From: Acholeplasmatales bacterium
GTDB lineage: Bacteria; Bacillota_I; Bacilli_A; Acholeplasmatales; Anaeroplasmataceae
DNA length: 6,493 nucleotides
NCBI GenBank assembly: GCA_017388605.1
Contig: JAFPIE010000265.1
Span: 1 to 6,493, forward strand
Reading direction: 5' to 3'
A program made the position numbers and the translations under genes. Below the pieces are notes generated by a model that saw nothing but the letters and a program-made list of their open reading frames with translations, did not search any database and had not been told where the DNA came from. This document shows, in pieces, positions 9 through 6,493 of this stretch (position 1 is its first letter; each line of letters starts with the position of its first letter).

Positions 9-72
9 CGGGAATGATGTTCTCCCTTGCTATTATGCAAAACCGCTTATTCAAGCTGATGACGTCTATGAT
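9..72 (+). promoter_or_regulatory. Fluoride riboswitch aptamer (crcB motif RNA)
   Basis: This leader matches the crcB/fluoride riboswitch architecture. Seen in the sequence: GGGA (10-13) can pair with TCCC (23-26) as the pseudoknot helix. GATGT (16-20) pairs with ACGTC (62-66), with one G-U, as the long-range helix. The conserved AAAC lies at 40-43. GCTT (45-48) pairs with AAGC (53-56) as a hairpin, followed by the conserved GCTGATGAC (55-63) and CTA (66-68). An extra small hairpin, TTGC (27-30) with GCAA (37-40), sits between the pseudoknot strand and AAAC. Known of the class: Mg2+-dependent binding of F- stabilises this fold and turns on genes for fluoride resistance. The 3' part overlaps a terminator, which fits an 'on' switch acting on transcription. 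The promoter must lie upstream of the window. The assignment is from motif memory and hand pairing, without a covariance-model score. Confidence 0.86.
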
Positions 73-101
73 TTTTTATCATGGATAAATCAGCTTTTTT
101 T
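53..101 (+). terminator. Intrinsic terminator, expression platform of the fluoride riboswitch
   Basis: AAGCTGAT (53-60) pairs perfectly with ATCAGCTT (89-96). An inner ATGAT (68-72) / ATCAT (78-82) hairpin closes on a five-T loop, and the stem runs into a seven-T tract (95-101). The left arm includes the 3' strand of the aptamer hairpin (53-56) and the conserved GCTGAT. The internal loop contains the ACGTC strand of the long-range helix. Aptamer and terminator are therefore mutually exclusive folds: ligand-bound RNA should read through into the antiporter gene, and free RNA should terminate. Confidence 0.85.
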
Positions 102-110
102 CATTTTAAA

Positions 111-116
111 AGGAGG
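111..116 (+). promoter_or_regulatory. Ribosome binding site of the antiporter gene
   Basis: A perfect AGGAGG stands four bases before the ATG at 121. It decides the start, because the reading frame remains open upstream to the window edge; the upstream part of that frame is riboswitch and terminator RNA rather than protein-coding sequence. It lies just past the terminator U-tract, so it is only transcribed on read-through. Confidence 0.85.
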
Positions 117-120
117 AATT

Positions 121-1335
121 ATGAACATTTTTTTATCATTATTTATTATTTTTACCTGTGGTATTTTGGGTGGAATTCTATTTGAAAAAATAAAATTACC
201 AAAGCTTGTTTGGTATATTATATTAGGAATATTCATTGGCCCATCCGTATTAAATATTGTAGATGATACATTAATAAATATATCATCCTATCTAAGACAA
301 ATTGCTTTAGTTATTATATTAACTAGAAGTGGATTATCCTTAGATATCCATAATTTAAAGAAGATAGGTAGACCTGCTATATTTATGTGCTTTTTACCTG
401 CAGTATTTGAAATTGTAGGTATCGCTATATTTGCTCCAATATTTTTAGGAATATCCTATTTAGAGGCATTATTACTCGGTAGCGTTCTTGCTGCAGTATC
501 ACCTGCAGTGGTTGTACCTAGAATGATTAAATTAATGGATGAGGGCTATGGAATGGAGCATAATGTTCCTGAGCTCATAATGGCTGGAGCATCCTGTGAT
601 GATATTTTTGTAATTGTATTATTCTATTCCTTTAAGAGCTTAGTTGCAACCTCTAATTTTCAAGCTTGGGATATAGCACAAATACCAATAAGCATAGTAG
701 GAGGAGTATTCTTAGGTATTGTTGTTGGATTTTTCATTGTTTTAATCCTCCATAAATTAAAAATGAATAAGGTAATTCATGTCATATTTATGCTAGGAGC
801 ATCCTTTGGAATGATTGCCTTAGAGAGTGCATTAAAGCCATATTTTAGCATTTCATCGCTTTTAGCCATAATCGTTATGGCTTTAATCGTTCATATCTTT
901 AAAAGGGAAGAAGCAAAGGAAATTCAAAAAACCTATAATTCCTTATGGAGTGGCTTTGAAATATTATTATTTACCCTAGTTGGTATTGCAACCGATATAC
1001 ATTATGCTTTTTCTATAGAAGGTGCCATTTTAATTGGTATTGTTCTTATAGCATTAGTATTTAGAAGCATAGGTGTTTTTGTATCTTTAATCGCTACAAA
1101 ATTTAATAAAAAGGAAAAACTATTTATTATATTATCCTATCTTCCTAAGGCAACCGTTCAGGCATCCATTGGTGCTATTGCATTACAGGAGGGATTGGGA
1201 TGTGGAACTGTTGTTTTAACGGGTGCAGTCATTTCTATTTTAATTACTGCACCACTTGGGGCAATATTAATGGATAGAACCTATAAGAAATTATTAAACC
1301 CAAAGGAAGAAATAGAAATTAATTTAAACAACTAA
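121..1335 (+). CDS. CPA2-family cation:proton antiporter, fluoride-riboswitch controlled
   Basis: This is a 404-residue polytopic membrane protein with about 12-13 hydrophobic helices, consistent with the NapA/NhaA-like CPA2 fold and the usual length for a transport core without a C-terminal regulatory domain. Visible landmarks are the N-terminal helix and FEKIKLP segment (21-27), RSGLSLD (69-75), the SPAVVVP stretch (127-133) expected in the broken helix of the core, an Asp-Asp pair D160-D161 in ASCDD corresponding to the ion-binding aspartates, and LPKATVQA (341-348) with K343. The last motif is typical of the SLC9B/NHA branch. Such proteins exchange H+ for Na+, K+ or Li+ across the cytoplasmic membrane. 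The upstream fluoride riboswitch implies induction by fluoride, so its role is probably relief of fluoride or the accompanying proton/ion stress; direct fluoride transport is possible but unproven. The ATG at 121 is chosen for its RBS and the family N-terminus. The gene stands alone, followed by a new regulatory region. Confidence 0.9.
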   Translation: MNIFLSLFIIFTCGILGGILFEKIKLPKLVWYIILGIFIGPSVLNIVDDTLINISSYLRQIALVIILTRSGLSLDIHNLKKIGRPAIFMCFLPAVFEIVGIAIFAPIFLGISYLEALLLGSVLAAVSPAVVVPRMIKLMDEGYGMEHNVPELIMAGASCDDIFVIVLFYSFKSLVATSNFQAWDIAQIPISIVGGVFLGIVVGFFIVLILHKLKMNKVIHVIFMLGASFGMIALESALKPYFSISSLLAIIVMALIVHIFKREEAKEIQKTYNSLWSGFEILLFTLVGIATDIHYAFSIEGAILIGIVLIALVFRSIGVFVSLIATKFNKKEKLFIILSYLPKATVQASIGAIALQEGLGCGTVVLTGAVISILITAPLGAILMDRTYKKLLNPKEEIEINLNN

Positions 1336-1507: not shown

Positions 1508-4045
1508 ATGCTACTTAAAAAAACTGGGGTTATTATTGTCAATATATTCATTATGATTGCCATGCTGACCTTTGTTATAGTATATTCTGTTATTGAGAAT
1601 AAAAATATGACACAAAGGCAAATTGAGCATTTCGAAAATACAACCATTTCTATGGAGCATGTTACAGAGAATTATCTTGAAGGAGAGCAGCGTATATGTG
1701 ATGTTTGGGCAAGATACATCAATAGCCAAGAAATGACTATGGAGGATGCCATATCCTTTATTCGAGTTTCTCATGTTTTAGCGAATGCATCCGCACATAT
1801 CGTATTTGAGGATTCCTTAGTGGGCTTATCTACAAGAGGTAGTGCATCAAATCCAACGGATTATTCTGTTTCCTATGAAAGATTAGGCTTGTTAAATGAT
1901 GATAGCTGGATTTATGGAATGGGAGAATCCATTAATATATCTAGAGCGTATACGAATCCAGTAAATGGTGAGCAATCGATTGCGTTCTGTAATTTTATTA
2001 ATCTTAAGGATGGCCTAGATATGAAAAGAGCGATCCTACTTAGAGTATTACCGATTTCTGAATTAAAAGAAAAATGGAGCTTCCCTCAGGAGGCATTTGT
2101 AAATGCGGAGCTATCCATTATTGATGGGGATGGAGATTATATTATTAAAGGACATTCCTTCAAGAATTCTAGCTTCTTTGAATTCTATAGATCCTATAAT
2201 TCTATAGACCCACAGGAATCCGATAGCTTCTTTAAGGGAATAACATCGAAGACAGGCTCATTTATTATGCTTAATTCTCGTGGTGAGGAATGTATCCTTT
2301 CCTATACCCCATTTGCCCAGACTGGTGGATGGACCTTACTTAGCTTTATGCCACTAAAGGATTTAAATGTAAATACAGAAAACTGGCTTTTAATTGGATT
2401 TGTTTCTATAGGTCTTATCATATTATTTGTCTTCGATTTAGTTGTTATGCTGTATTTTAATAAAAAGCTTCAAATTACTGCAAGAGAGGCAAGATCCGCA
2501 AGTAAGGCTAAAACAGATTTCCTATCGACGATGTCACATGATATTAGAACTCCAATGAATGCGATTATTGGTCTTACAACCATCGCACAAAAGAATATTG
2601 ACGATAAAAAATCAGTTAGTGATGCTTTGCATAAGATTACTCTTGCAAGTAATCATTTGTTGACATTAATTAATGATATATTAGATATTTCTAAGGTGGA
2701 AAGTGGAAAATTGAATTTATCCCCACAAACCTTCTCTATCGTTTTAACTGCTGAAAATTTAATGAATTTATCTCAGCCTTTAATTAAACAAAAGAATATT
2801 GATTTTAGCTTCCATATCAGTCGTATAGAAAAGGAATATCTATATGCAGATCAGCTAAGATTAAATCAAATTTATATTAATATCCTATCGAATGCCATTA
2901 AATATACCGAGCCTTATGGAAAGGTTAGTGTAGATTTAAAGGAGGAGGAGTCCAATAAGGAGGGCTGTATTAAGCTTACCTACAGGGTTTCTGATACAGG
3001 TATAGGTATGAGCAAAAGCTTCATGCAGACGATGTATCAGCCATTCTCCCGTCAAACCGATAGTAGAATCAACAGCATTCAGGGTACAGGCTTAGGTCTT
3101 GCCATCACCAAGCAAATGGTAGACCTTATGGAGGGCACAATTGAATGTGAAAGTGAAGAGGGTAAGGGTACAACATTTACTGTTGTATTAGATATTCCTT
3201 TATCCGATTATCAAAGAGGAGAAATGAAGCTTGAGGCATTAGATGTCTTAATTGCGGATGATGATGAGGTTTTATTAGAGACAGCTAAGGATACCCTATC
3301 CTCCTTAGGCTTAAATGTGGAGGAGGCAAGAAGTGGTCTTGAGGCAATCGGAATGATTAAGCATAGGCATGAGCTTGGTAAAGGCTATAATATTGTCATC
3401 ATTGATTTAAAAATGCCTGATATTGATGGTATAGAAACTATAAGAAGAATAAGATCGGAAATCGATTCCGATACACCAATTTTACTTATTTCTGCATATG
3501 AATGGCAGGATGTAGAAAGAGAGGCTAAGGAGGCTGGAGTAAACGGCTTCTTAAGTAAGCCATTATTTAAATCTACCTTATACGATAAGATTAATGAGAT
3601 TTTAGGTACAGAGGCAAAGACAGCTGAGCCTGATGGTGATTATTCCGATTTAGAGGGTGTAAATGTCTTAATTGCAGAGGATTATGATATCAACTGGGAA
3701 ATTATTTCTGCCTTACTTTCTATGTATGGAATTACTGCAGAAAGAGCGGAAAATGGTAAGGTTTGCTTAGAAAAGATGAAGGCGGCAAAGCCTAATGAAT
3801 ATACATTAATCTTCATGGATATTCAAATGCCAGAGATGAATGGACTTGATGCAACAAGAGAGATCAGAAAGCTTGAGGATAAATATCAATCCTCTATCCC
3901 AATCATCGCTATGACGGCAGATGCCTTCTCTGAAAATGTTACAGAATGCTTAAATGCTGGTATGAATGGACATATCGCAAAGCCTGTAGATATTAAGCTT
4001 GTAATTAAAGAAATAAGAAGAATAAAGGAGGAAGCAAAGAAATGA
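1508..4045 (+). CDS. Membrane hybrid sensor histidine kinase with two receiver domains
   Basis: This is an 845-residue protein counted from the ATG at 1508. A membrane helix (about 7-29) is followed by a 260-residue extracytoplasmic region, probably Cache-like (it contains ELSIIDGDGDYIIKG, 201-215), and a second membrane helix (about 293-317). The HisKA domain carries SHDIRTPMNAIIG with phospho-acceptor H344. The HATPase domain shows an N box (N462), DTGIG (496-500) and GTGLGLAI (526-533), so it looks catalytically intact. Two receivers follow: REC1 with D584-D586, phospho-acceptor D633, S662 and K684; REC2 with E724-D725, D771, T803 and K825. No HPt domain is present after REC2, so onward transfer requires a separate HPt protein or another route. 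The stop overlaps the ATG of the solute-binding lipoprotein, suggesting coupled translation and a joint sensing role. The identity of the ligand cannot be read from the sequence; the domain calls are secure. Confidence 0.95.
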   Translation: MLLKKTGVIIVNIFIMIAMLTFVIVYSVIENKNMTQRQIEHFENTTISMEHVTENYLEGEQRICDVWARYINSQEMTMEDAISFIRVSHVLANASAHIVFEDSLVGLSTRGSASNPTDYSVSYERLGLLNDDSWIYGMGESINISRAYTNPVNGEQSIAFCNFINLKDGLDMKRAILLRVLPISELKEKWSFPQEAFVNAELSIIDGDGDYIIKGHSFKNSSFFEFYRSYNSIDPQESDSFFKGITSKTGSFIMLNSRGEECILSYTPFAQTGGWTLLSFMPLKDLNVNTENWLLIGFVSIGLIILFVFDLVVMLYFNKKLQITAREARSASKAKTDFLSTMSHDIRTPMNAIIGLTTIAQKNIDDKKSVSDALHKITLASNHLLTLINDILDISKVESGKLNLSPQTFSIVLTAENLMNLSQPLIKQKNIDFSFHISRIEKEYLYADQLRLNQIYINILSNAIKYTEPYGKVSVDLKEEESNKEGCIKLTYRVSDTGIGMSKSFMQTMYQPFSRQTDSRINSIQGTGLGLAITKQMVDLMEGTIECESEEGKGTTFTVVLDIPLSDYQRGEMKLEALDVLIADDDEVLLETAKDTLSSLGLNVEEARSGLEAIGMIKHRHELGKGYNIVIIDLKMPDIDGIETIRRIRSEIDSDTPILLISAYEWQDVEREAKEAGVNGFLSKPLFKSTLYDKINEILGTEAKTAEPDGDYSDLEGVNVLIAEDYDINWEIISALLSMYGITAERAENGKVCLEKMKAAKPNEYTLIFMDIQMPEMNGLDATREIRKLEDKYQSSIPIIAMTADAFSENVTECLNAGMNGHIAKPVDIKLVIKEIRRIKEEAKK
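4026..4031 (+). promoter_or_regulatory. Ribosome binding site of the lipoprotein, inside the kinase gene
   Basis: A perfect AGGAGG is embedded in the last codons of the kinase gene, ten bases before the ATG at 4042. Start and stop share the bases ATGA, so ribosomes finishing the kinase can reinitiate on the lipoprotein. The strong site also permits independent loading, as expected if the lipoprotein is needed at or above the level of the kinase. Confidence 0.75.
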
Positions 4046-5346
4046 AAAAGGTAATGGGTTTGTTTTTGGGTGCTTTAATGGGTGTATCACTTTTATCCTG
4101 CGGACAGGGTAATTCTTCCCTAACTGAAGGCGAGCAAAGTGAGGAATTTGTTCCATCCTTAGATAAGAATAAGGAATGTGATATCGATATTGTAGGAAGC
4201 TATGATAATTTTGAAGCATTAGAGGCAGAATTTGATAAGTTTAATGAGTATTATCCTAATGTTCGCCTAAGCTATAGAAAGCTTGATGATTATAATAATA
4301 CCTTAGCTACGGTATTAGATTCTTCCGATAAGCCTAATATTTTCTTTTCCTACACATGGATGATGGGAAATGATAAATATAACTCTGTAGTTTCTCATAT
4401 GGAGGAGCTTTCGAATAAAAATCTTAAATTCAATTTGAATTGTATTCGTCAGGGTTTAATTCATCAGGATGCATCTTCTAAAGTATATATGGTACCTGTT
4501 TTCTCTAGAACCTATGGTATGCTTGTCAATAATGATTTATTTAAAAAGGAAGGAATTACTGTACCTTCTACATGGGATACCTTAGTTTCTACTTCCTTAT
4601 CCTTCAAGGATAAAGGATATGTAAGCCCAATCATGGGCTATAGCCTAACGTCTTCAAGCTGTTTTATGAATACGATTGCCTATCCACTATTTGTTGCAGC
4701 ACTAGAAAAGAATCCTAGCGCCTTAGCACTTGCGAATGATTTAAATCCATCTGCAGGAGAATATATGAGAGATTCTTTAAAGGCTGTTACAGATTTAGTA
4801 GATAAGGGATGTATCAATTTAGATGAATGCGATAAGATTGCAGATAATTATAAAAAGGTATTATTACGCTTCTTTGAGGGCGATGTACCAATGATGGTAT
4901 GTACGGCAGATACAGTATCTGGTACTAAGAAAAGAGAAGCAGAATCTGAAGCATTTAAGGCTTCTCCATTTAATTATTCCTTCTATCCAATTCCTTTAAC
5001 AAAGGATGGTGGCTATTTCATAGATAGTCCATCTGTTGAATTTTCTGTAAATAAGGATTGCAAGAATTTAGATATGACCAATGAATTCATGAAATTCTTA
5101 ATTTCAAGCAAGGAGCTAAACGCTATGGCATCGATTAAGAGGCTTGTAACTCCAACAAAGGATATGCCGCTAGATTCTGTATATGAGCCATTTGGTAGCA
5201 TTGCCAAGGAAAGAATCATTTTCCCAGAGGTTATCGGTATAAAGGATCCTCTAACCGTTCAGCTTAGAATTGCATCCTACAAGGTAGGAAGAGGAGAAAT
5301 GACGATTGATGAGGCTATAAGCAATTACGGTAGCTTTAAGGACTAA
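4042..5346 (+). CDS. Extracellular solute-binding lipoprotein (family 1), sensor-linked
   Basis: This is a 434-residue protein with a lipoprotein signal: MKK, a hydrophobic stretch, then lipobox LLSC with lipidated C20, followed by a Ser/Glu-rich linker. The mature part has the usual size and layout of family 1 (MalE-like) solute-binding proteins. It begins with a beta-strand and helix (CDIDIVGSYDNFEALEAEF, 46-64) and YYPNVRLSY (70-78). It also has MLVNNDLFKKEGITVPSTW (160-178), in which the P-x-TW motif is characteristic, and FFEGDVPMMVCTAD (277-290), corresponding to the family's G-x-x-AM segment. It should be anchored on the outer face of the membrane and bind a sugar, oligosaccharide or other small solute. 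No permease or ATPase gene is adjacent; its only operon partner is the hybrid kinase, with ATGA overlap. A role as ligand-binding co-receptor for the kinase is inferred; service to a remote ABC transporter is the alternative. Confidence 0.9.
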   Translation: MKKVMGLFLGALMGVSLLSCGQGNSSLTEGEQSEEFVPSLDKNKECDIDIVGSYDNFEALEAEFDKFNEYYPNVRLSYRKLDDYNNTLATVLDSSDKPNIFFSYTWMMGNDKYNSVVSHMEELSNKNLKFNLNCIRQGLIHQDASSKVYMVPVFSRTYGMLVNNDLFKKEGITVPSTWDTLVSTSLSFKDKGYVSPIMGYSLTSSSCFMNTIAYPLFVAALEKNPSALALANDLNPSAGEYMRDSLKAVTDLVDKGCINLDECDKIADNYKKVLLRFFEGDVPMMVCTADTVSGTKKREAESEAFKASPFNYSFYPIPLTKDGGYFIDSPSVEFSVNKDCKNLDMTNEFMKFLISSKELNAMASIKRLVTPTKDMPLDSVYEPFGSIAKERIIFPEVIGIKDPLTVQLRIASYKVGRGEMTIDEAISNYGSFKD

Positions 5347-5356
5347 GAAAGATAAG

Positions 5357-5387
5357 ACCATTCTTCTTTTGAAGAGTGGTTTTTTTT
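5357..5387 (+). terminator. Intrinsic terminator of the kinase/lipoprotein operon
   Basis: ACCATTCTTC (5357-5366) pairs with GAAGAGTGGT (5371-5380) through ten base pairs, one of them G-U, around a TTTT loop. Seven more T follow directly (5381-5387). It begins ten bases after the lipoprotein stop. It separates the operon from the downstream response regulator gene, which therefore needs its own promoter. Confidence 0.93.
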
Positions 5388-5417
5388 GGAAACAATTTCG
5401 TTGTTTTTGTTAAAAAA

Positions 5418-5454
5418 TTGGCTATAAATTGAATTATTTTTGTCTATAACTGGA
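5418..5454 (+). repeat. Pair of 15-base direct repeats, candidate regulator-binding site
   Basis: TTGGCTATAAATTGA (5418-5432) and TTGTCTATAACTGGA (5440-5454) agree at 12 of 15 positions. Their start-to-start distance is 22 bases, about two helical turns, so a dimeric or tandem DNA-binding protein would meet both on the same face. The second copy begins with TTGTCT, the best candidate -35 for the downstream gene, and lies just before a consensus -10. This arrangement resembles an activator site overlapping a promoter. Neither the regulator nor any other copy of the repeat is identified within the window. Confidence 0.4.
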
Positions 5455-5470
5455 TAAAATATTATATAAT
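5440..5470 (+). promoter_or_regulatory. Candidate sigma-A promoter of the REC-GGDEF gene
   Basis: A perfect TATAAT lies at 5465-5470. The best -35 is TTGTCT (5440-5445, four of six), but the spacer is 19 bases, longer than the optimal 17. Such a stretched, weak -35 often goes with activator dependence, and the direct repeat covering it fits that idea. Transcription would start near 5477, leaving about 50 bases of leader. Confidence 0.5.
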
Positions 5471-5513
5471 AATATAAAGTGTTAAAATGTATTTTCAAAA
5501 AACCTAAGGAAAT

Positions 5514-5518
5514 AGAGG
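5514..5518 (+). promoter_or_regulatory. Ribosome binding site of the REC-GGDEF gene
   Basis: AGAGG stands eight bases before the ATG at 5527 and supports that start. AGGTT (5516-5520) could pair with AACCT (5501-5505) across a ten-base loop, partly masking the site, but five base pairs are too few to claim translational control. Confidence 0.6.
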
Positions 5519-5526
5519 TTCATTTT

Positions 5527-6493
5527 ATGAATAATAATATTATTAATAAGCTAAAAAGATATATTTTAATTGCAGATGATGAATATATCAATCAAGAAAT
5601 ATTAAAGGAAATTTTATCTAGTGAATATGAGGTTTTAATTGCGAATAATGGTCTTGAGGTAATGCGTACCCTAGAGGAAAGTCCAAAGCCAATTTCACTT
5701 ATTTTACTGGATTTAAATATGCCATTTATGGATGGATTTACGGTAATCCGAAAAATAAAGGAAAGCGATGTATATAAGGATATCCCTATTATTGTAATTA
5801 CAGGGGATAAGGATAGTGAGCTTGAGGCACTAACCCTAGGTGCAGTAGATTTTATTACTAAGCCATTTGACTTAAATGAAATTATTATGGCTAGAGTCAA
5901 TCGTTCTATCGAATTATCTGAAAAAAGAATTATCGTAAGTACTGCAGAAAAGGATGAATTAACAGATTGCTACAACAAGCCTGTATTTATGGAATATGTG
6001 GAAAGAATTGATAAATACGGAAATGGTGAGGCAAAGGATATGGTTGTTTTAAATATCTCTCATTTCCATTTATATAATGAGCTTTATGGTAAAGAAGAGG
6101 GCGATAAGGCTTTAGTATATATTTCCAATATCCTAAAGGCTATCGCATTACAAAATGATGGTATTGTATCTAGAATACAAGCAGATTATTTTGCATTATA
6201 TGTCAATCATTTAGAGGATTATGATAAGGTTATTGTTTTTATTCATAAGGAACTAAAGGAAAAATATAATGCATCAAACATTTCTGTTCGTTTAGGTATT
6301 TATTCTTCAAATAAAAAGGAAGAATCTGTTGATGCAATTATCGATAGAGCGAAGATGGTTTGTGATGAAATCAGAAGTGCAAACACAAAATTTTATAATA
6401 TTTATAGCGAGGATTATCAGAAAAACCAATTATTTAAGGAAAGATTAAATTACGATTTCCTAAAGGCAATTGAAAATCAGGAATTCTGTGTAT
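5527..6493 (+). CDS. Response regulator: REC, degenerate GGDEF, probable EAL (3' end missing)
   Basis: The frame is open for 322 codons and runs off the window. Residues 10-125 form a complete receiver: D17-D18, phospho-acceptor D62 in LLDLNMPFMDG, T92, and K112 in TKPFD. A GGDEF-like domain starts at DELTDCYNKPVF (143-154). Its metal-binding strand reads VVLNISHF (173-180) where active cyclases have Asp at both N176 and S178. The signature GGDEF is replaced by QADYF (218-222). The domain should therefore be unable to make cyclic di-GMP and may act as a GTP sensor or structural module. FKERLNYDFLKAIENQEFCV (303-322) resembles the usual entry into an EAL phosphodiesterase domain, whose catalytic part would lie beyond the window. 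The protein is likely cytoplasmic. Its position after the kinase/lipoprotein operon, behind its own promoter, makes it a candidate output for that sensor (inference). Confidence 0.88.
   Translation, partial: MNNNIINKLKRYILIADDEYINQEILKEILSSEYEVLIANNGLEVMRTLEESPKPISLILLDLNMPFMDGFTVIRKIKESDVYKDIPIIVITGDKDSELEALTLGAVDFITKPFDLNEIIMARVNRSIELSEKRIIVSTAEKDELTDCYNKPVFMEYVERIDKYGNGEAKDMVVLNISHFHLYNELYGKEEGDKALVYISNILKAIALQNDGIVSRIQADYFALYVNHLEDYDKVIVFIHKELKEKYNASNISVRLGIYSSNKKEESVDAIIDRAKMVCDEIRSANTKFYNIYSEDYQKNQLFKERLNYDFLKAIENQEFCV

Follow-up and report, generated by a model that had tools for sequence, protein, structure and literature searches.

A fluoride riboswitch ahead of an NHA2-like antiporter gene, a candidate stand-alone fluoride-defence cassette in Anaeroplasma bactoclasticum and uncultured relatives

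The DNA analysed here (the window) is a 6,493-nt stretch of an Acholeplasmatales contig. It opens with a riboswitch leader that runs into an antiporter gene, with the following features:

1-75, + strand: fluoride riboswitch aptamer (crcB motif), from the match to RF01734 (48.4 bits, E 2.5e-11)
27-40, + strand: variable P2 hairpin inserted in the aptamer, from the fold and from two-sided pair changes in two of four pairs among 28 leaders
53-101, + strand: predicted intrinsic terminator (hairpin 53-96, T95-T101), mutually exclusive with P3, from the minimum free energy fold (z -3.8) and pairing in 28 leaders
111-116, + strand: likely ribosome-binding site AGGAGG, from its sequence ahead of the ATG at 121
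121-1335, + strand: NHA2/SLC9B-like Na+/H+ antiporter, 404 aa, from PF00999, NHA2 structure matches and a residue table

The Rfam covariance model RF01734 is matched over its full length (model positions 1-64 of 64), well above its gathering score of 34, and this is the sole Rfam match in the whole window at E<=1. By its sequence, the segment 1-75 is confirmed as a fluoride riboswitch. A chance RNA match is ruled out by the E-value and by the presence of the riboswitch in 32 of 32 loci from relatives (see below). An earlier sequence-only reading had recognized a crcB-motif aptamer with all its pairing elements, and rightly: P1 (10-13/23-26), P2 (27-30/37-40), P3 (45-48/53-56) and the pseudoknot (16-20/62-66, with one G-U) can all pair in the window. 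Its start, placed at position 9, cuts off the 5′ flank of the model; the match begins at window base 1, so any promoter must lie outside the window. Of 33 leaders, 28 were aligned; since the rows are related, shuffle controls overstate the support for their pairing. P1 is invariant. P2 has 88.4% of its cells paired, and P3 has 77.7%, its two outer pairs being invariant and the inner two failing to pair in 11 and in 14 rows. For the pseudoknot the figure is 72.6%, and its last two pairs fail in most rows as aligned.

The predicted fold of the leader (1-112) retains P1 and P2 and replaces P3 with the hairpin 53-96, after which comes the T run. Its energy, -28.2 kcal/mol, compares with a mean of -15.9 (s.d. 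3.2) for shuffled leaders, of which 1 in 200 was equally stable. The hairpin takes up 53-56, the 3′ strand of P3, and its outer stem has 99.6% of cells paired in the 28 leaders, with two-sided changes in three of eight pairs. The bases common to the terminator and P3, together with covariation among these related leaders, identify an expression platform that competes with the aptamer, as the sequence-only reading had proposed. A simple terminator scan of 1-1600 called no terminator, because its rule needs a loop of 3-8 bases and the outer stem here encloses an inner hairpin. Since the 3′ part of the aptamer doubles as half of the terminator, fluoride should switch transcription on: the layout is that of a fluoride ON switch. 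Without fluoride the hairpin would form and transcription would halt ahead of the antiporter gene; with fluoride and Mg2+ the aptamer would lock, P3 and the pseudoknot would tie up bases required for the terminator, and the antiporter would be produced. Passages of a 2010 paper describe crcB RNAs with overlapping terminators, for which expression was expected to rise on ligand binding (PMC2864571).

The ORF at 121-1335 matches PF00999 (Na_H_Exchanger, 159.1 bits) and no other Pfam domain at E<=0.001, the Fluc and CLC-F domains (PF02537 and PF00654) included. Its nearest solved relatives are NHA2/SLC9B2 of human (7b4l, E 9.2e-50) and bison (7p1i, 1.3e-46), followed by MjNhaP1 (5.4e-6). Foldseek likewise placed NHA2 at ranks 1-5 (top hit 34% identity, TMq 0.75), using a structure model built from 17 sequences (pLDDT 77). 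NCBIfam gave three matches, all far below cut-off, which do not settle the branch: the best was NF003716 (K+/H+; 80.9 against 355 bits) and the third TIGR00932 (CPA2; 47.2 against 238.3 bits).

Passages of PMC8850199 describe the NHA2 ion site and an NHA2-specific salt bridge, composed of two Asp, an Arg, a Glu, a Lys and a Thr that replaces a Glu of NapA. D160, D161, E97, R315, K343 and T345 of the antiporter correspond to these residues, which are kept almost without exception among 89 riboswitch-linked proteins (R315, E97 and T345 in 89; D160, D161 and K343 in 88). The same source reports NHA2 as electroneutral by measurement and points to the Arg that stands in place of Lys; by that reasoning the antiporter here should be electroneutral too. 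The protein had been labelled SLC9B/NapA-like; the SLC9B part stands and the NapA part does not, since R315 and E97 are as in electroneutral NHA2, and the Lys of electrogenic NhaA and NapA is not there. By its structure matches and these residues the protein is of the NHA2 exchanger type, with a probably electroneutral exchange of Na+ and H+. Residues that would mark off the riboswitch-linked antiporters, whose pairwise identity falls as low as 29%, were sought among well-conserved positions and none was found: each position conserved at >=90% in linked proteins is also conserved at >=75% in unlinked ones.

The 4 kb downstream of the antiporter, with as many as four ORFs, was compared between the window and 18 of the 32 loci; the most widespread gene family across these 19 is shared by only 3. 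The window itself carries a sensory cluster at 1508-6492. It comprises a hybrid sensor kinase that has two receiver domains, a solute-binding protein encoded by an overlapping gene, and a protein that combines receiver and GGDEF domains. Antiporter and kinase as one system was considered and rejected: of the 32 loci, many of which are short, L001 is the only one where the genes for kinase and binding protein turn up again.

To find relatives of the locus, genome contigs were scanned with the antiporter protein alone. This yielded 32 loci in 31 genomes, and in all 32 a riboswitch lies directly upstream of the antiporter gene; direct control of that gene, which had been claimed, is thus borne out by position. 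The loci come from Anaeroplasma bactoclasticum (classed as Mycoplasmatota in NCBI) and from uncultured bacteria mostly labelled Bacillales, Bacilli, Acholeplasmatales or Erysipelotrichaceae, and 12 of the 32 records name a rumen, reticulum or omasum in their titles. One above-cut-off fluoride riboswitch was found in each of 30 of the 31 genomes; the other genome, G030, has two, each ahead of an antiporter fragment at the end of a contig.

Riboswitches and their targets were also listed across two classes, that of A. bactoclasticum (G004; 296 genomes sampled) and that of G028, a genome whose record is titled Candidatus Epulonipiscium (226 genomes), with stricter RNA filters that make the riboswitch counts lower bounds. 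In the first class a member of the antiporter family lies within 1 kb downstream of 62 of the 67 riboswitches above the gathering score, and of 66 of all 75 listed, the gap between riboswitch match and antiporter match having a median of 45.5 nt (n=66). The other targets among the 67 are crcB (one), CLC (one) and neither (three); the CLC-neighbour test used the positions in G204 and G054, and, going by contig numbers, none of the remaining unassigned riboswitches shares a contig with a CLC gene. The 49 riboswitches of the second class precede the antiporter in 27 cases, crcB in 7 and neither in 15, two of which (G467 and G390) have a CLC gene with CLC-F motifs 340-365 nt downstream. Antiporters had been called a known but minority target. 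They are known, and passages of a 2024 review, citing Baker et al. 2012, rank Na+/H+ antiporters directly behind the exporters in frequency among riboswitch-linked classes (PMC11139923); rare they are not, this family being the commonest target in both samples here.

Beyond G467 and G390, the riboswitches of the second class with neither target were inspected in genomes G364, G405, G445 and G532. Tandem fluoride riboswitches in G532 precede an antiporter of another subfamily (L306:123-1412), nearest to CPA2 though below cut-off. In G199 and G364 the riboswitch stands before a protein of 239 or 245 aa with a weak NifU_N match (L301:243-959, + strand, and L304:635-1369, - strand), and the ORF after that gene is alike in both. 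A dynamin-like GTPase follows the riboswitch in G405 (L303:1-1425, - strand). A strong riboswitch in G061 (L300, 50.7 bits) has no ORF of >=70 aa within 1.25 kb downstream in the three forward frames, and tandem riboswitches stand ahead of a single antiporter in L256 (G137:C6:22500-24154).

Five named replicons, taken from rows 1-4 and row 6 of a plasmid search, were examined as well. They belong to Acetoanaerobium, Peptoclostridium, Cetobacterium, Ilyobacter and Picosynechococcus and represent Clostridia, Fusobacteriota (two replicons) and Cyanobacteriota. A riboswitch was found upstream of the antiporter on all five; the one in Peptoclostridium is separated from it by a CBS-domain gene. The plasmid search returned 790 matches, mostly from Klebsiella and Escherichia, and only six records cover 80% of the query. 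The nine listed rows of the Klebsiella/Escherichia type, H7-H15, match the C-terminal half of the query only (46-48%), and most are annotated as cation:proton antiporter.

Antiporters without a riboswitch make up 28 of the 117 in our tree, which excludes L137 and L237 (<300 residues) and contig-end fragments, and in which five second-class rows are unlinked by the class-wide riboswitch listing. For the unlinked first-class antiporters, no upstream fluoride riboswitch was matched at E<=1 in 25 stretches (one of which, L175, has only 192 bases), so the family is not devoted to fluoride alone. That the riboswitch-linked antiporters form one clade was rejected, as the label switches 17 times on the tree and starred branches force 11 of these switches (a quick method, with some long branches).

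The usual fluoride exporters were sought in the same genomes. No crcB was found in any of the 31 relatives' genomes by a search that was positive in 10 of 14 controls. CLC genes were found in two, both without the signature motifs GREGT/V and GEVTP that define CLC-F in section 11 of PMC11139923. These genomes measure 0.7-2.2 Mb, all except A. bactoclasticum are from uncultured organisms, and no completeness is given for them. The 31 and the class samples overlap, with G004, G010, G015, G017 and G025 counted both here and among the 65 cassette genomes of the first class, and G028 both here and among the 31 antiporter genomes of the second.

In the first class, none of the 65 cassette genomes has crcB, against 9 of the 231 others, a difference that is not significant (two-sided p 0.21) because so few of the others carry the gene. 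In the second class crcB is missing from all 31 antiporter genomes and present in 43 of the 195 others (one-sided Fisher test, p 8e-4, with genomes counted as independent of ancestry). When antiporter clusters are taken as the lineages, for 30 of the 31 second-class genomes, the chance of seeing no crcB is 0.004 at 70% identity (22 clusters), 0.11 at 60% (9 clusters) and 0.78 at 50% (1 cluster), so shared ancestry may explain the exclusion. Matches to crcB below cut-off, in the cassette genomes G256 (30.5 bits) and G303 (20.3 bits) and in G364 (31.1 bits), were left uncounted.

CLC genes occur in 17 of the 65 first-class cassette genomes: one is a canonical CLC-F (G054, with GNNLI, GREGT and GEVTP), two are CLC-F-like (G060 and G292) and 14 are without the signature. 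Sixteen of the 31 second-class antiporter genomes have a CLC gene, none of which combines GREGT/V with GEVTP. Several antiporter genomes carry CLCs with GREGA and with GEIVP, GEVVP or GEVIP (L109, L110, L116, L213, L214 and L219-L221), which are neither of the GSGIP type nor canonical CLC-F. The claim that the riboswitch controls an antiporter instead of CrcB or CLC-F is therefore stronger for the relatives than had been stated, as none of the 31 has crcB or a CLC-F signature, which makes the locus more interesting than the sequence-only reading held; exclusiveness does not hold, with CLC-F or CLC-F-like genes in 3 of the 65 cassette genomes. Where both usual exporters are apparently missing, the antiporter may be the main fluoride-controlled defence.

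These counts bear on an explanation that we consider very unlikely, in which several genes respond to fluoride, the antiporter among them, and an exporter was missed by the models or is absent from the draft assemblies. It would fit the uncultured origin of 30 of the 31 small genomes, whose completeness is not given, as well as the CLCs with GREGA and GEIVP-type motifs and the CLC-F and CLC-F-like genes of G054, G060 and G292. Against it, the crcB search that drew a blank in the second-class antiporter genomes succeeded in 43 of the 195 others and in most controls, and the relatives' riboswitches, single in 30 of 31 genomes, lead to the antiporter even in G030, where there are two.

We think it somewhat likely, then, that riboswitch and antiporter form a stand-alone, fluoride-induced defence cassette, in which the antiporter counters acidification by HF and replaces Fluc and CLC-F in this lineage. 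The aptamer, the terminator, the pairing with the gene, the exchanger-type ion site, the lack of crcB and recognizable CLC-F in the 31 relatives and the lack of a recurrent partner were all computed here; the fluoride response, the transport of Na+ and H+, its direction and its benefit are inferred. HF would enter as a weak acid and acidify the cytoplasm, and the likeliest role of the antiporter would be to exchange H+ for Na+, in which it would stand in for Fluc or CLC-F and not assist them. Passages of the 2024 review tie Na+/H+ antiporters to pH homeostasis under fluoride, with HF entry acidifying the cytoplasm (PMC11139923). Of the roles considered, pH homeostasis is the best supported, because of the exchanger-type ion site and because G532 has an antiporter of another subfamily behind fluoride riboswitches.

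By the weak-acid equilibrium, cytoplasmic F- follows the pH difference, and when H+ is pumped out F- goes up, not down. Homeostasis of pH alone is therefore no obvious replacement for an exporter, and since a restored pH would trap more fluoride, such an exchanger is odd as the only fluoride-controlled gene of a cell.

Na+/H+ exchange by itself would leave F- no lower, which speaks for an alternative that we still judge unlikely: the antiporter itself may move fluoride out, with F- coupled to H+ or Na+, as a third exporter family beside Fluc and CLC-F. It is consistent with the antiporter being the commonest riboswitch target in genomes mostly without crcB and recognizable CLC-F, and with the lack of a recurrent partner gene downstream. 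Fluc and CLC-F are also usually mutually exclusive, both occurring in ~3% of strains (PMC11139923, section 11). The same section names Tenericutes and Fusobacteria among examples of groups without an exporter, described as mostly obligate intracellular symbionts, and the cassette is found in Anaeroplasma and on two Fusobacteriota replicons. The tested ion-site residues are nonetheless those of a cation/proton exchanger, no conserved position is peculiar to the linked proteins, and the riboswitch-linked antiporter of another subfamily (G532) suggests a common cation/proton role. In its widest form, this idea would make SLC9B-like antiporters a third defence route that replaces Fluc and CLC-F across phyla, couples fluoride or HF to Na+ or H+ and serves some of the Tenericutes and Fusobacteria listed as exporter-less, a generalization that we find doubtful.

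The exchanger might also run in reverse, with H+ moving in and Na+ out, so that the pH difference shrinks, less HF is trapped and the cytoplasm becomes more acid. Exchange by NHA2 is electroneutral, so the Na+ and pH gradients would presumably set the direction, and the 2024 review reports, in its available passages, that fluoride-acclimated yeast tolerates a lower homeostatic pH (PMC11139923). Direction is unreadable from sequence, however, and an acid cytoplasm is itself harmful; we take this mode to be quite improbable.

The lineage is valuable since it is free of the usual confounder: its riboswitches hardly ever have a target other than the antiporter, and no recognizable Fluc or CLC-F is found in the 31 relatives. 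Fluoride tolerance may need nothing beyond pH control, or else cytoplasmic fluoride is lowered by an SLC9B-type protein. Both outcomes are informative; the latter, if true, would extend the known fluoride exporters by a family akin to human NHA2. In the literature searched on antiporters in fluoride defence (bioRxiv and most subscription journals excepted), the available passages (among them those of PMC11139923, PMC11477304, PMC5533749, PMC2864571, PMC9495176, PMC7266159 and PMC8850199) report no functional test of a riboswitch-linked antiporter. No fluoride work on Anaeroplasma appears among the matches listed, judged by title or the start of the abstract.

The locus is a member of an already described pairing, in which a fluoride-sensing leader precedes a Na+/H+ antiporter gene, as in PMC11139923. 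It differs in that the antiporter is the sole riboswitch-linked gene in nearly all relatives, in genomes without crcB or recognizable CLC-F, of which the available passages of that review make no statement. The stand-alone set-up without recognizable exporters, the near-total share of the regulon in the class and the SLC9B identity across phyla are apparently new, none having been found in the passages of the literature searched. The CD0656-7 operon of C. difficile is reported to place an antiporter, there of NhaP type, under a fluoride riboswitch, but with a CLC gene under the same riboswitch (passages of PMC11477304), a co-occurrence that counts against exclusiveness. CLC-F (EriC-F) genes behind a fluoride riboswitch, such as those of G467, G390 and G204, share with our locus the same sensor before a membrane transporter; the CLC-F family is unrelated to the antiporter, and F-/H+ exchange has been shown for it, according to the review (PMC11139923). 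NHA2/SLC9B2 of human (7b4l) and bison (7p1i) resembles the antiporter in fold, with 31-34% identity by structure alignment, and in its DD motif, Arg-Glu pair, Lys and Thr; in contrast to NHA2, the antiporter is bacterial and predicted to be riboswitch-regulated, and has a Tyr (Y340) at the position of NHA2 W457.
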